From positions 496,001 to 560,000 of the forward strand of contig JAIBCL010000001.1 of assembly GCA_019694165.1 (NCBI GenBank): a stretch of DNA of 64,000 bases. Reading direction: 5' to 3'. The notes under the pieces were generated by a model. The model had not been told where the DNA came from and searched no databases. It was given only the letters and a program-made list of their open reading frames with translations. This document shows positions 39,147 through 43,352 of this stretch, piece after piece; positions within the stretch are counted from its first letter, which is position 1; each line of letters begins with the position of its first letter. Origin of the DNA: Verrucomicrobiaceae bacterium. Lineage in GTDB: Bacteria > Verrucomicrobiota > Verrucomicrobiia > Verrucomicrobiales > Verrucomicrobiaceae. A program made the translations under genes and the position numbers.

Positions 39147-40055
39147 ATGAAACGACGCCGCTTTCTCCAGCACATCGCCGCCTCCTCCGCCGCCGCCCTG
39201 CCACACGTCACCAGCGCCGCGGCTCCTGCATGGAGGCTCAACTACATGCTCGCCTCGTCGATGTACGGCGGCTTGAAACTCGCCGACATCCTCCCCGAGG
39301 TGAAGAAGACCGGTGCCACGAGCATCGAACTCTGGCCGAAGAAATGGGGCACGCAGCGCGAGGAACTCGACGAGATCGGCCATGACCGCTTTGCCTCCAT
39401 GCTCAAGGAGCACGGCCTGGGCTTCGGCGGCACCACTCGCTACGACTTAGGGCCTTTCGGCCTCACCGACGAGATCACGATCATCAAGAAGCTCGGCGGC
39501 TCCATCATCGTCACCGGCGGCGCGGGCAACTACAAGCTCGAAGGCGATGCCCTGAAGGCCGAGGTGAAGGGCTTCGTCGAGAAGATGAAGCCGCACGCCG
39601 CGCTCGCCGCGGAGAACGGCATCACCATCGGCATCGAGAACCACATCAACAACATCATCGACACGCCGAACTCCCTGCTCTGGCTGGCCGATTTCACGCG
39701 CGACATGCCCGGCATCGGCATCGCCCTTGCGCCTTATCATCTGCCGCAGGACACCAAATGGCTGGCCGACATCATCACCCACTGCGACAAGAAGCTCACC
39801 CTCTTCTATGCCTGGGAGCACGGCATGGGCTGCATGAAGCCCATGCCGAAAGACGAAGAAGTCCAGCAGCTTCCCGGCCGCGGCAAGCTCGACTGGAAGC
39901 CGCTGCTTTCCGCCCTCAGACAGATCAACTTCACCGGCCCGACCGAGATCTTCATGCACCCCACGCCTCGCGGCATCCCCATCATGCCCACGCTGGCGGA
40001 ATCCACCGCCGAGATCGTACGTGCCCGCGAGTTTCTCGACAAGATCACCGTCTGA
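39147..40055 (+). CDS. Exported sugar phosphate isomerase/epimerase-like TIM barrel
   Basis: A 302-residue protein from ATG 39147, beginning with an Arg-rich export signal ('MKRRRFLQHIAASSAAALPH'), similar to twin-arginine signals. The body matches the AP endonuclease 2/xylose isomerase-like TIM barrel: 'EVKKTGATSIELWPKKWGTQ', 'NGITIGIENHINNIIDTPNS', 'GIGIALAPYHLPQD' and 'FTGPTEIFMHPTP'. Members isomerise or epimerise sugars or sugar derivatives and often use a divalent metal bound by Glu, Asp and His. The last strand has 'EIFMHP' where the metal Glu is expected. Such exported isomerase-like proteins are abundant in verrucomicrobia and planctomycetes. The substrate is unknown. A second, cytoplasmic family member is at 46932. 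Confidence 0.82.
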   Translation: MKRRRFLQHIAASSAAALPHVTSAAAPAWRLNYMLASSMYGGLKLADILPEVKKTGATSIELWPKKWGTQREELDEIGHDRFASMLKEHGLGFGGTTRYDLGPFGLTDEITIIKKLGGSIIVTGGAGNYKLEGDALKAEVKGFVEKMKPHAALAAENGITIGIENHINNIIDTPNSLLWLADFTRDMPGIGIALAPYHLPQDTKWLADIITHCDKKLTLFYAWEHGMGCMKPMPKDEEVQQLPGRGKLDWKPLLSALRQINFTGPTEIFMHPTPRGIPIMPTLAESTAEIVRAREFLDKITV

Positions 40056-40200
40056 ACATGCGCCGCGGCACCGCCCCCGGCAGCGGACACGCCATCCTCG
40101 TGCGCAACCTCAATCAAAACCGAGGCGCTCGCCCAAGCGCCGCCACCCGACACCAGTGATTTCACCCGGCTGCAATCCGAGTAACCGGCTGGCGGACATC

Positions 40201-41010
40201 ATGCGCGGTTTCACGCCGGGCCAGATGGCGGTGCTCTCCGTGTTGCTGGCACTTGGTGGAGCCATGCTCGCCACGTCCGCACGCCTGCTCATCGTGCCGG
40301 TCACGATCCCGGAGATAAATGCGCTGCTGCTGCCGGCCACGATGCTGGCCGCCACAGCGTCGTTCATCCACGGTTGGATCACATTCTCACTGCGCGGCGC
40401 GATCGTGTTTTTTGCGCTCTCGGCCGTGTGCGGATTGGTGGCCGAGATCGTGGGCGGCCGCCTCCCGGTCTTCGGCGCCACGTATGAGTATGCGCCTGGT
40501 CTGGGACCGCGGATTTTCGGCGTGGTGCCGGTCTTCGTGCCGCTGGCGTGGTTTTTCCTGTCCTTCCAGTCGCTCGCGGTGCTGCGTCCGCTCCTGCGAA
40601 GCCGCGCCATGCCCGCCGCGCTGCGCGCCGCAGCCTGTGCATCGCTGCTGACGGCATTCGATCTTCTGCTTGATCCGCTGGCCACCGCCCTGGGCCTGTG
40701 GCGCTGGGACGAAGCGGGCGCCTTGTTTGGCGTGCCCGCGCTCAACTCCGCCGGCTGGTTCGCCACCGGCCTCTGCATCTTCAGCCTCGTCTTCCGGTTG
40801 GTGAAGGCTCGCCCGCCGGAGCACCACACCGCGTTTGCCCGCGCAGTGGACATCCTGTCCGCGCTGATGACCGGACTCACCACACTCGTGCTCATCGGAG
40901 TCGCCATGCGCGTGATGCGGCCGTCGGCCTATCCAGCGATCATGCTGATCATGACCGTGCCGCCCTGGCTGGTCTGGATGAAACACCTGCTGATCAACCG
41001 TCGCCTTTGA
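40201..41010 (+). CDS. CruF-like carotenoid-biosynthesis membrane protein (DUF422)
   Basis: A 269-residue protein with about seven membrane helices. Its best-conserved segments are 'AEIVGGRLPVFGATYEYAPG', 'VVPVFVPLAWFFLSFQS', 'AFDLLLDPLATALGLWRWDE' and 'GVPALNSAGWF', which match the CruF/DUF422 family of carotenoid 1',2'-hydratases and relatives. In those enzymes Asp and Glu residues in these segments act on the terminal isoprene of a carotenoid. No other carotenoid gene is seen nearby, so the real substrate may be a different isoprenoid or lipid. The radical SAM gene follows after 19 bases and looks co-transcribed. Confidence 0.75.
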   Translation: MRGFTPGQMAVLSVLLALGGAMLATSARLLIVPVTIPEINALLLPATMLAATASFIHGWITFSLRGAIVFFALSAVCGLVAEIVGGRLPVFGATYEYAPGLGPRIFGVVPVFVPLAWFFLSFQSLAVLRPLLRSRAMPAALRAAACASLLTAFDLLLDPLATALGLWRWDEAGALFGVPALNSAGWFATGLCIFSLVFRLVKARPPEHHTAFARAVDILSALMTGLTTLVLIGVAMRVMRPSAYPAIMLIMTVPPWLVWMKHLLINRRL

Positions 41011-41029
41011 TTCACCGCACTCGTCAATC

Positions 41030-42526
41030 ATGCCCGCCATGCGCACATCCGGAGCGAGTCGCGTTCTCAAATCCACCACCAGCCGCTGCCCCGTCTGCAG
41101 GCTGTCCTGCGCGGCCACGGTGGAGGAGCGCGGCGGCAAGGTTTTCCTGAGCCGCACCTGCGCGACGCACGGCCCGTTCACAGCGTGCATCGCGAGCGAT
41201 GCGCGGTTTTACTGGCTGGCGAAAGGGAAGGACGAGAACCGCGAGGGAGCATGCTGCGCCGGCGGCGCATGCTGCGCGGCGGACGGCAAGAACGCCGGAA
41301 CGCTGGGACGGAACGCGGGAGGGCGCGGGGAGAATCCCATCGAGATGCTCTCGACATGCCTCGCACTCATCGAGATCGTGAACTCGTGCAATCTCGCGTG
41401 CCCGACGTGCTACGCGGACTCGCCGCCAAACCGGCCGCTCGTGGCCGATGCGATTGAACAAACGGACGGCGTAGATCAGCCGTCAGCGCACGCGAGCACC
41501 CGCGTTTCCGGCGTGGTGCCCGCCGACGACATCAAACGCCGCGTGGACGACGTGATCGCGCGGAAGGGCCGGATCGAAATCCTCCAGTTCTCCGGCGGCG
41601 AGCCCACGCTGCACCCTGATCTCATCGATCTGTGCCGCTGGGCGAAACATCACGAACACATCGACTTCCTGCTGCTGAACACGAACGGCGTGCGCCTGGC
41701 GAAGGAGCCGGAGCTTTGCGCGCAGCTTGGCGGCGTTTTCAGGGACGGCGGCATGCAGATTTATCTGCAGTTCGACGGTGTGCAGGAGGCCGGCCAGCGG
41801 TCCCTCCGCGGCGCCGATCTGCGCGCGATGCGCGAGAAGGCCATTGCCCGGCTCGCGGCGGCAGGCATCCCGGTCACGCTCGCGATGACCGTCACGCGCG
41901 AGAACCTGCCGCACCTCTGGAGTGCGGTGGAGTTTGGACTGAAGAATCCGGCCGTTCACGGCATCACTTTCCAGCCGGAGTTTCTCAGCGGGCGGAATGC
42001 AGCGCATGACGGCGCCTCGAAACGCTCGATGGTCACATGCGGAAACCCTTTTCAGAAAGCGGCGCATGAGTGCCCGGAACGGCTCAACACCGCGGACATC
42101 ATCCTCGGCGCAGTGGAGCAGTCGGGCGGGCAGTTGCGCTTCGAGGACTTCACTCCCCTGCCCTGCGGCGACCCGAACTGCGCCACCATCGGCTACCTCA
42201 TCCGTCAGGCAGGCCGTGTGTGGCATGTGAGCGACTTCCTCGATTTCACGAAGCTGCAGGGTTTCCTGCACGACAAGGTCCACTACACCCTGGCGGATCT
42301 CGCCCGGTGCGGCTGCGAGAACACTGAACTCGGCGAGCTGCTCAAGACGCTGGAACACACACGCAGCATGGCCTTCCGCATCATGGTGAAGCCCTTCATG
42401 GACGCGTGGACCTGGGACGAAGACCGCATCGACCGCTGCTGCACGCATGTGATCAGGCCCGACGGAAAGCTCGACTCCTTCTGCCGCTACTACTCGGGCT
42501 TTCCCGACGCATCGCCCTCATGCTGA
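41030..42526 (+). CDS. Radical SAM protein of the MJ0619/Tes-like type
   Basis: A 498-residue protein (a second ATG at 41039 is equally possible). An N-terminal zinc-ribbon-like part ('SRCPVCRLSCAATVEERGGK', 'CATHG') is followed by the radical SAM motif 'SCNLACPTCYADS', whose three Cys bind the 4Fe-4S cluster, and 'ILQFSGGEPTLHPDLIDLC' (SAM-binding GGE). C-terminal Cys-rich segments ('CGDPNCATIGYL', 'LARCGCENTE', 'RIDRCCTHVIRPDGKLDSFC') suggest extra clusters. The layout fits the MJ0619-type family, which includes tetraether synthase Tes and pterin methylases. A Cys-rich insertion 'GACCAGGACCAADG' before the radical SAM core is odd. A role in lipid tail modification is inferred from the neighbours: a CruF-like protein before and an Lgt-like protein 94 bases after. 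Confidence 0.8.
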   Translation: MPAMRTSGASRVLKSTTSRCPVCRLSCAATVEERGGKVFLSRTCATHGPFTACIASDARFYWLAKGKDENREGACCAGGACCAADGKNAGTLGRNAGGRGENPIEMLSTCLALIEIVNSCNLACPTCYADSPPNRPLVADAIEQTDGVDQPSAHASTRVSGVVPADDIKRRVDDVIARKGRIEILQFSGGEPTLHPDLIDLCRWAKHHEHIDFLLLNTNGVRLAKEPELCAQLGGVFRDGGMQIYLQFDGVQEAGQRSLRGADLRAMREKAIARLAAAGIPVTLAMTVTRENLPHLWSAVEFGLKNPAVHGITFQPEFLSGRNAAHDGASKRSMVTCGNPFQKAAHECPERLNTADIILGAVEQSGGQLRFEDFTPLPCGDPNCATIGYLIRQAGRVWHVSDFLDFTKLQGFLHDKVHYTLADLARCGCENTELGELLKTLEHTRSMAFRIMVKPFMDAWTWDEDRIDRCCTHVIRPDGKLDSFCRYYSGFPDASPSC

Positions 42527-42620
42527 CATGGGCGCAAAGAAACCCTGCGGGAGCAAGGATGCCCCGGACTGAAACGGCCTTGAATCCTCCGCACCTTTTC
42601 GCCGTGATGCCAAAGCCTGC

Positions 42621-43352
42621 ATGCACGAACTGATCCCACAAACCGGAGGCGCGTATGCGGTCCTCATGCTGACGGGGATTGCGGTGAGCGCGGCGTACTG
42701 GTTTCGCCGCGGCCGGCACGATCCGGCGCTGCTCGTCATTTACATCGGTGCGCTTGGCGGTGCGTTTGCCGGCGCAAAGCTGGCCTACGTCTTCGCCGAG
42801 ATCGCGTCCGACTGGAACCGGCCTGATTTCTGGCTGCGGCTGGCCACGGGCAAGTCCATCGTCGGCGGCCTGCTCGGCGGCTACGCAGGCGTGGAGGCGA
42901 TGAAGAAGCTGGTCGGACACGAAAAATCCACGGGCGATGCCTTTGCCCTGATCCTGCCCGTGGCCCTGCTGCTCGGGCGCGCGGGCTGCTGGCTGCACGG
43001 GTGCTGTCTCGGAAGAAGCGTGCCGGCGGATTTCCCCCTCACGCTGCGTGACGCCGAGGGCGTCACCCGCTGGCCCGCGGTGCCGGTGGAGATGGCATTC
43101 CTCGCCGTGATGTTTGCACTCATGGCGTTCTGGAAATGGAGCGGTCGCCATCGCGACCGGCTGTTCTTCATCTTCCTGGCCGCCTATGGCGCCTTTCGCT
43201 TCACACACGAGTGGCTGCGGGACACTCCGAAGTGGGCCGGCGTGGCGAGCGGCTATCAGGTCCTCTCCGCCGGGATGACGGTGCTGGGCGCGGTCATGTT
43301 CGTGCGCCGGGGACGTCGGACGCGCGCCTTGCCCGGGCGGCCCCAGGACTGA
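42621..43352 (+). CDS. Divergent prolipoprotein-diacylglyceryl-transferase-like membrane protein
   Basis: A 243-residue protein with about seven membrane helices and the Lgt layout: 'GKSIVGGLLGGYAGVEAMKK' (the Gly-rich Lgt segment) and 'AYGAFRFTHEWLRDTP' with the conserved Arg and Glu. The Lgt signature 'G-R-x-G-N-x-x-N-x-E' is replaced by 'GRAGCWLHGCCLG', with Cys where Asn and Glu should be. Residues important for diacylglyceryl transfer are therefore missing or changed. It is more likely a paralogous transferase, acting on another lipid, than the essential lipoprotein enzyme. It is in line with the radical SAM gene and converges with the PP2C gene, six bases away. Confidence 0.75.
   Translation: MHELIPQTGGAYAVLMLTGIAVSAAYWFRRGRHDPALLVIYIGALGGAFAGAKLAYVFAEIASDWNRPDFWLRLATGKSIVGGLLGGYAGVEAMKKLVGHEKSTGDAFALILPVALLLGRAGCWLHGCCLGRSVPADFPLTLRDAEGVTRWPAVPVEMAFLAVMFALMAFWKWSGRHRDRLFFIFLAAYGAFRFTHEWLRDTPKWAGVASGYQVLSAGMTVLGAVMFVRRGRRTRALPGRPQD

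Follow-up and report, generated by a model that had tools for sequence, protein, structure and literature searches.

A conserved gene pair encoding a tetraether-synthase-like radical SAM protein and a divergent Lgt-like protein, and its possible role with small G-x-C membrane proteins

The DNA analysed is a stretch of 64,000 nucleotides from a Verrucomicrobiaceae bacterium (the window). A preliminary description of this DNA had placed three consecutive genes here, and the three open reading frames, CruF-like, radical SAM and Lgt-like, were all found on the same strand. The features of the locus are as follows (Tes, tetraether synthase):

40201..41010, + strand: CruF-like gene (PF04240), inside the open reading frame 40021-41010 with its start taken as 40201; Pfam Caroten_synth 119 bits, above cut-off.
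41030..42526, + strand: radical SAM protein of 498 aa with a predicted Tes fold, the first of the two conserved enzymes; Pfam Radical_SAM 62.5 bits and Zn_ribbon_HMPTM 53 bits, above cut-off.
41087..41170, + strand: rubredoxin-like site C20-X2-C23-X20-C44-X2-H47, counted directly on the translation.
41387..41410, + strand: radical SAM cluster motif C120-X3-C124-X2-C127, present in 35/35 of the window clade.
42164..42484, + strand: C-terminal cluster region with C379, C384, C427, C429, C470, C471 and C485.
42621..43352, + strand: Lgt-like protein of 243 aa with 7 TM helices, the second of the two conserved enzymes; Pfam LGT 82.3 bits, above cut-off.
42975..43007, + strand: signature GRAGCWLHGCC (canonical Lgt GRLGNFINGEL), with C123, C128 and C129 in 29/29 window-clade Lgt-like proteins.

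An Rfam search gave zero matches within the window, a promoter scan detected none, and a terminator scan returned eight terminator-like sites, most of them intragenic. The Pfam scan took in 8 proteins, and among the flanking genes covered there was no DVU_1556-type methyltransferase. When six-frame open reading frames were clustered all against all to look for further conserved neighbours, off-frame reading frames dominated the result.

The three genes had been proposed to form a lipid trio. The neighbourhood survey upheld the radical SAM and Lgt-like duo but not conservation as a three-gene unit. The CruF-like gene was found at none of the 122 homologous radical SAM loci examined and in only one other genome among 57 relatives, and on these grounds it was rejected as a member of the system. 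Its scores against the CruF hydratase families lie below both cut-offs (TIGR03460, 77.6 bits against 154.7; NF045693, 74.5 against 400). It is a bystander, outside the conserved system, and is probably co-transcribed with the pair at the window locus.

The two remaining genes belong together, as had been suggested. Of 80 named loci, which come from many phyla, 62 have an Lgt-like gene close to the radical SAM gene, always on the same strand. In a phylum sample of 288 genomes, all nine that bear the radical SAM gene also have the Lgt-like gene, eight of them on the same contig. The radical SAM and Lgt-like genes are a strongly conserved pair across deep branches.

A profile search with the radical SAM protein matched 7TOL at 2.7e-78. 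Its AF2 model (pLDDT 79.4) aligned with 7TOM over 400 residues (Z 39.9, rmsd 2.8, 29% identity), the next unrelated structure scoring 19.2. As modelled, the protein has the Tes fold over its whole length, and both results bear out the claimed kinship with MJ0619/Tes. The cysteines C20, C23 and C44 of the rubredoxin-like site occur in 34 of 35 window-clade rows, the remaining row being a gap. From the N-terminal auxiliary cluster of Tes (three Cys and a His) the window protein keeps C75 and C81, but their spacing is different and no His partner could be assigned. Met439 and Tyr459, reported in a legend of PMC9433317 as completely conserved in archaeal Tes homologues, correspond to K454 and V474. 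The score against the NCBIfam Tes/GDGT-MAS model is 153.8 bits, below the cut-off of 450, and the best NCBIfam match is TrsS (NF045646), at 198.2 bits with a cut-off of 490. In a quick tree, in which locus L147 sits on a long branch, the window protein is far from archaeal Tes (loci L145 and L146). In the tree comparison proposed earlier, the protein groups neither with archaeal Tes nor with the methyltransferase-linked TrsS-type branch. A selenocysteine considered in the radical SAM gene of one genome (G321) was rejected, since the in-gene TGA proved to be the terminal stop.

The AF2 model of the Lgt-like protein (pLDDT 93.4) matched E. coli Lgt (5AZB) at Z 14.6 over 221 residues, with the next match at 6.1. 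Together with the Pfam LGT score, this modelled Lgt fold agrees with the earlier description of a divergent Lgt; the TIGR00544 score, 32.3 bits, is below the cut-off of 118.9. The window genome also carries two canonical Lgts. The replacement of the signature Asn and Glu by Cys was likewise recovered: residues 119-131 read GRAGCWLHGCCLG, and the alignment to E. coli Lgt equates Asn146 with C123 and Glu151 with C128. The preliminary description had overlooked the loss of the catalytic His103, whose equivalent is V81. Among the 62 Lgt-like proteins this position is never His, and the Asn146 equivalent is Cys in 60. Because every tested His103 mutant and N146A of E. coli Lgt are reported as inactive (PMC8689077, PMC4728403), the Lgt-like protein may be a lipid-binding pseudoenzyme or may act otherwise. 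The phosphatidylglycerol (PG)-binding residues R143, E202, Y235, R239 and R246 of E. coli correspond to R120, E157, Y189, R193 and R200 in the window protein, which also keeps E243, as E197; R143, Y235 and R239 are kept in 62/62 Lgt-like proteins and E202 in 60/62. Judged by this alignment, the predicted PG-binding residues are retained in all phyla.

A third component had also been overlooked. In many bacteria small proteins with 2-3 TM helices are encoded beside the pair, and their G-x-C cysteine closes a TM helix 5-14 residues before the C-terminus (84 cysteines lie in this range). The 62 loci yielded 95 small proteins on the same strand near the pair, 5 on the opposite strand and 13 far from it. 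A cysteine within the last 22 aa was present in 74 of 103 small proteins (shuffle mean 43.5, maximum 60 in 2000). This late cysteine occurred in 67/95 near and 4/13 far small proteins (p 0.0098), a comparison of short proteins called by a crude, codon-based method with a far control of only 13 genes. With the stricter motif the same near-far contrast was not significant (p 0.14), and an earlier control with too few far genes gave p 0.18. The other 29 of the 103 have no late cysteine; some of them have G-x-C after TM1, which is a post-hoc extension of the motif. In a 12-row alignment the cysteine is the sole invariant column, mean column identity being 28%. Pfam and NCBIfam scans of the small proteins gave none above cut-off.

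The cysteine is C-terminal in 58 of the 76 small proteins with the TM-end motif, which do not have the form of an N-terminal signal peptide with lipobox. Lysine and arginine are more numerous before the TM helix than after the cysteine in 62 of these 76, fewer in 4 and tied in 10. From this charge pattern the cysteine is predicted to lie on the outer membrane face, as does the lipobox cysteine where Lgt meets it. A prediction fixed beforehand was tried on 19 further Flavobacteriaceae loci: 18 of 19 had a small protein by the strict motif, all 19 had an Lgt-like protein in which position 146 is Cys and His103 is absent, and the strict motif was found in 0/8 opposite-strand small TM open reading frames used as a control. 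By genome, the radical SAM gene and the small protein occurred together in 13, singly in 2+2 and neither in 40 (p 4e-9), the exceptions being G013 and G021 (small protein only) and G015 and G042 (radical SAM only). In the relative G031 the radical SAM protein, the Lgt-like protein and the small protein have all decayed together. The window operon contains no substrate-type small protein; an intact one is encoded on another contig of that genome, unlinked to the pair.

The composition of the system, radical SAM protein, Lgt-like protein and small protein, is well supported, the three being found together on one strand across many phyla, and the chemistry is what we infer from it. Our leading interpretation, held tentatively, is a three-part membrane-protein modification system in which the Lgt-like protein lipidates the small-protein cysteine and the Tes-like enzyme acts on the lipid chain. 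The small proteins would be the substrates. The Lgt-like protein would bind PG or a relative and transfer a diacylglyceryl-type lipid to the small-protein cysteine, its own Cys123 replacing the His103/Asn146 chemistry, and signal-peptide cleavage would be unnecessary because the substrate cysteine is not N-terminal. As the Tes-like enzyme is expected to be cytosolic and the outer-face cysteine would be out of its reach, it would work on a hydrophobic chain, forming a C-C or C-S bond at the lipid tail or acting on the lipid before transfer. We counted this separation, radical SAM protein in the cytosol and small-protein cysteine outside, against the mechanism. The small membrane protein would end up with a lipid anchor that has been modified and may be cross-linked. 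In the window organism the gene for this substrate would lie on another contig, the position that it usually holds being taken by the CruF-like gene. A bolder version, which we consider improbable as it stands, is an undescribed, multi-phylum post-translational modification: the Tes-like enzyme and the His-less, Cys-bearing Lgt homologue would lipidate the outer-face G-x-C cysteine of small multi-pass proteins and remodel the tail covalently, for example by linking it with another lipid or with the opposite leaflet, giving an anchor made without a signal peptide.

The trio proposed earlier could also survive, minus CruF, as a free-lipid module, in which the Tes-like enzyme joins or alters tails, synthesis or transfer of the lipid falls to the Lgt-like protein, and the small proteins serve as subunits or regulators. 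The Tes fold and the retained PG pocket are in keeping with this, as are the lipid-tail chemistry known for MJ0619 (PMC9433317), the proposal of Zeng et al. that bacterial Tes homologues make brGDGTs (PMC8941075) and the ICMT/PEMT-like methyltransferase at some loci (L139 among those scanned). However, a lone invariant cysteine in divergent, multi-copy small proteins is a pattern typical of substrates and not of subunits, and the enzyme lacks the Met439 and Tyr459 found in archaeal Tes; this module is a possibility of rather low probability. Because small G-x-C proteins lie beside the pair, a system that modifies membrane proteins is at least as likely.

A little lower still we place a RiPP-like route, in which the radical SAM enzyme cross-links the small protein (thioether or C-C) while it is still in the cytosol, leaving the Lgt-like protein no more than the task of holding or inserting it. 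Tandem small proteins, four in locus L082, do look like precursor arrays, and the next structural neighbours of the enzyme are radical SAM maturases of Cys peptides (SkfB 18.0, SuiB 18.2). Yet its resemblance to Tes extends over the full length, at a Z score of 39.9 against 18-19 for peptide maturases; moreover, the small-protein cysteine sits in a TM end and the lipid-binding residues of the Lgt-like protein are kept in all phyla.

That the module of the window genome is disrupted and being lost, through CruF-like insertion and displacement of the substrate gene, seems to us quite unlikely: the operon does lack the small protein and the relative G031 shows decay, but both enzymes are intact with all conserved residues present, and so is the small protein on another contig. 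Least probable of all is a TrsS-type enzyme of a methyltransferase-linked system with an incidental Lgt-like neighbour, which would fit the top NCBIfam match and the DVU_1556-family methyltransferase of Lgt-less loci such as L105, but the score is far short of the cut-off, such a methyltransferase was not found in the window loci, and the Lgt-like pairing spans deep branches.

Hundreds of bacterial Tes homologues have been found and were guessed to make membrane-spanning lipids (PMC8941075). Our search of the open-licence PMC literature found no paper linking them to an Lgt-type protein or a small-protein substrate. If the favoured interpretation of a membrane-protein modification system is true, it would give a large group of so far unassigned bacterial radical SAM enzymes a concrete substrate, partner and site, and would make bacterial Tes matches unsafe as markers of tetraether lipid producers. 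It would also reveal a reworked Lgt active site, with cysteine replacing essential histidine/asparagine chemistry, in a family that is a drug target. Flavobacteriaceae isolates allow a direct test of the system.

Among known systems, the closest to the radical SAM protein is Tes/GDGT-MAS (MJ0619, 7TOL/7TOM), with which it has in common the radical SAM motif and the RCC.H and F.C..Y elements. The rubredoxin spacing C-X2-C-X20-C-X2-H is also identical to that of Tes (C9X2C12X20C33X2H36, PMC9433317). It differs in its extra conserved cysteines 379, 427 and 429 and in its Lgt-like partner, which the archaeal Tes loci L145 and L146 did not show. A neighbouring DVU_1556-type methyltransferase defines TrsS; the Lgt-less relatives have one, whereas the window branch does not. 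Mss, the membrane-spanning lipid synthase of Sahonero-Canavesi et al. (2022), is similar by description: it too is a radical SAM enzyme from bacteria whose targets are fatty chains (PMC11868695). The Lgt-like protein shares with the prolipoprotein diacylglyceryl transferase Lgt of E. coli its fold and the residues R143, E202, Y235, R239, E243 and R246, but is without His103 and has Cys for both Asn146 and Glu151. The small proteins resemble the lipoprotein lipobox in having a cysteine that follows a small residue where an in-to-out TM helix reaches the outer face, and the RiPP-lipoprotein hybrids (PMC12636315) likewise combine a modifying enzyme with Lgt-type lipidation. Unlike in both of these, the cysteine here usually lies close to the C-terminal end of a protein with several TM helices, and in place of the MNIO enzyme there is a radical SAM enzyme with a dedicated Lgt-like protein.

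Three consecutive genes were proposed as a membrane-lipid module in the preliminary description:

40201-43352, + strand, three genes on one strand: CruF-like, radical SAM and LGT family, in that order
40201-41010, + strand, CruF-like gene (PF04240 family match)
41030-42526, + strand, radical SAM protein, 498 aa, with an HMPTM zinc ribbon (domain match)
42621-43352, + strand, LGT-family protein, 243 aa (domain match)

As a conserved unit, the trio did not hold. The window CruF-like protein matched none of the 122 wide loci collected and none of the 15 relatives' loci described below. Relatives of its gene were found in 1 of 57 other related genomes at E 1e-10, and since it has almost no relatives there, it is probably a recent arrival in the window genome (7.8 Mb, 66 contigs).

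The association of the radical SAM and Lgt-like genes was, by contrast with that of the trio, borne out by the neighbourhood survey. Strong homologues of the radical SAM protein (E ≤ 4e-46) were present in 15 of 57 related genomes, in one of them as a fragment; the other 14 genomes provided 15 loci, 13 of which carry an Lgt-like gene on the same strand, while in the remaining two the contig stops immediately past the radical SAM gene. Among 288 genomes sampled from the phylum, the radical SAM profile matched nine; all nine contain an Lgt-like gene, in eight cases on the same contig within ~5 kb. In one genome (G031, locus L048 on contig C29) none of the three genes is intact: radical SAM and Lgt-like remain as fragments, and the gene for the small protein contains an internal TGA; this joint decay fits the expectation for one unit.

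A GTDB genome scan with the radical SAM alignment as query extended the distribution. An Lgt-like gene is found in 62 of the best 80 named loci, in every case on the same strand, and these 62 belong to Verrucomicrobiota, Planctomycetota, Bacteroidota, Bacillota, Pseudomonadota, Acidobacteriota, Chloroflexota, Elusimicrobiota and Cyanobacteriota, plus a Woesearchaeota bin. For several of the 18 loci lacking it, the stretch ends close to the radical SAM gene. Sequence clustering placed Lgt-less L101, L102, L104, L105, L115, L132 and L138 in a SAM methyltransferase cluster (the L105 enzyme matches the DVU_1556 family at 130 bits, below the cut-off of 155); these methyltransferase loci are a separate, TrsS-like arrangement. 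This set includes a Nitrosotalea archaeon with a true Tes (L146) elsewhere in its genome, so archaeal and bacterial-type Tes-like enzymes coexist. In a quick tree of 82 radical SAM proteins, the window protein, whose nearest named relatives are Verrucomicrobiaceae, belongs to a Verrucomicrobiota/Planctomycetota branch of 35 rows, with support 100, set apart from the two archaeal Tes included, and several deep branches hold Lgt-linked proteins.

Additional genes occur at some loci. Distant branches have an ICMT/PEMT-like membrane methyltransferase next to the pair or between its two genes (L139:8357-9004 by Pfam scan; L062:8090-8746, L064:8853-9455 and L111:2413-2922, similar by sequence reading), and in one genus a DUF7133/cytochrome c gene separates the two (L034:12147-14750 by Pfam; L036:1469-4072).

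The AF2 model of the Lgt-like protein (pLDDT 93.4) matched E. coli Lgt with Z 14.6 over 221 residues, the next structure scoring 6.1. Residues were tabulated for 62 pair-linked proteins (the window and 61 loci). His103, essential in E. coli Lgt according to PMC8689077 and PMC4728403, is present in none, and Cys replaces Asn146 in 60; R143, Y235 and R239 are retained in all 62 and E202 in 60. The position of Glu151, described in PMC4728403 as binding the phosphatidylglycerol head group in E. coli, is Cys in 29/29 proteins of the window branch, whereas all 19 from the Bacteroidota/Bacillota/Pseudomonadota group have a hydrophobic residue there. Judged from these alignments, the lipid pocket is kept and the catalytic chemistry must differ from that of Lgt. 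Two further Lgt genes in the window genome both have the canonical His and Asn, so the housekeeping role does not fall to the window copy. An Lgt-like gene of the other type (GRIGCFLSG) lies upstream of the radical SAM gene in G140, of the same class as the window (L063:7184-7861); both types are thus present in one phylum.

Small proteins with two or three TM helices are encoded adjacent to the pair. With a crude codon-based gene caller, the 62 Lgt-linked loci gave 95 such genes near the pair on the same strand, compared with 5 on the other strand and 13 at a distance. The near set comprises 103 proteins from loci with and without an Lgt-like gene; a Cys falls within the final 22 residues in 74 of them, whereas 2000 shuffles gave a mean of 43.5 and a maximum of 60. 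Of the cysteines, 84 lie 5-14 residues from the C-terminus, and position -2 relative to the late Cys is most often Gly (34/74). With only 13 far genes for comparison, near and far proteins differed in late Cys alone (p 0.0098) and not significantly in the stricter motif (p 0.14). In a 12-row alignment of window-side proteins Cys is the sole invariant column (mean column identity 28%). At several Pseudomonadota loci, as noticed afterwards, G-x-C follows the first TM helix instead. Four tandem G-x-C-type proteins lie between the two enzyme genes at L082:9348-11092, and at least six surround the pair at L073. Lys plus Arg are more numerous before the TM segment than after the Cys in 62/76 proteins, fewer in 4 and tied in 10, an excess inflated because the tail is often shorter than the preceding segment; the Cys is predicted to be on the outer face.

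Co-occurrence of the radical SAM gene and the small protein (A4 profile) was measured in the 57 related genomes: both were present in 13, radical SAM only in 2, small protein only in 2 and neither in 40 (p 4e-9, ignoring kinship). The small protein of the window genome (119 aa, 3 TM, several late cysteines) is encoded on a different contig, at C6:12329-12598 (E 1.4e-11), so the genomic link holds without adjacency. The enzyme is present in 20/149 Flavobacteriaceae genomes, and a prediction set down beforehand was checked in 19 further genomes of this family, a test not fully independent because two Flavobacterium loci had been seen earlier. All 19 have an Lgt-like gene with Cys at 146 and no His103, and in 18 of them a small protein satisfies the strict motif; in the remaining genome, the late Cys is accompanied by Gly at -3. 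None of eight opposite-strand small TM ORFs at the Flavobacteriaceae loci had the motif.

Beyond the observed composition, conservation, folds and residue swaps, we infer that the Lgt-like protein would lipidate the Cys of the small protein, using its own Cys123, and that the cytosolic radical SAM enzyme would work on a hydrophobic chain. The two steps are given to separate enzymes because an iron-sulphur enzyme in the cytosol faces a Cys on the outer side; this topological gap is the chief weakness of the proposed mechanism, and a free-lipid reading and a RiPP-type reading are both kept as rivals to it.

Both enzymes fall in known superfamilies, and the literature searched contained no described system matching the enzyme pair with a dedicated Cys-bearing small membrane protein. 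If the small proteins are not substrates, the finding shrinks to a variant of the bacterial Tes-homologue group. The AF2 model of the radical SAM protein (pLDDT 79.4) matched Tes (7TOM) with Z 39.9 over 400 residues, the best unrelated match being MoaA (Z 19.2), and the residue spacing of its rubredoxin-like site, C-X2-C-X20-C-X2-H, exactly matches the one given for Tes MJ0619 in PMC9433317. However, two residues that the same paper gives as completely conserved in archaeal enzymes, Met439 and Tyr459, are K454 and V474 here, and there are additional conserved cysteines at 379, 427 and 429. The window protein thus uses the Tes scaffold, yet lies outside the archaeal Tes family as that family is defined.
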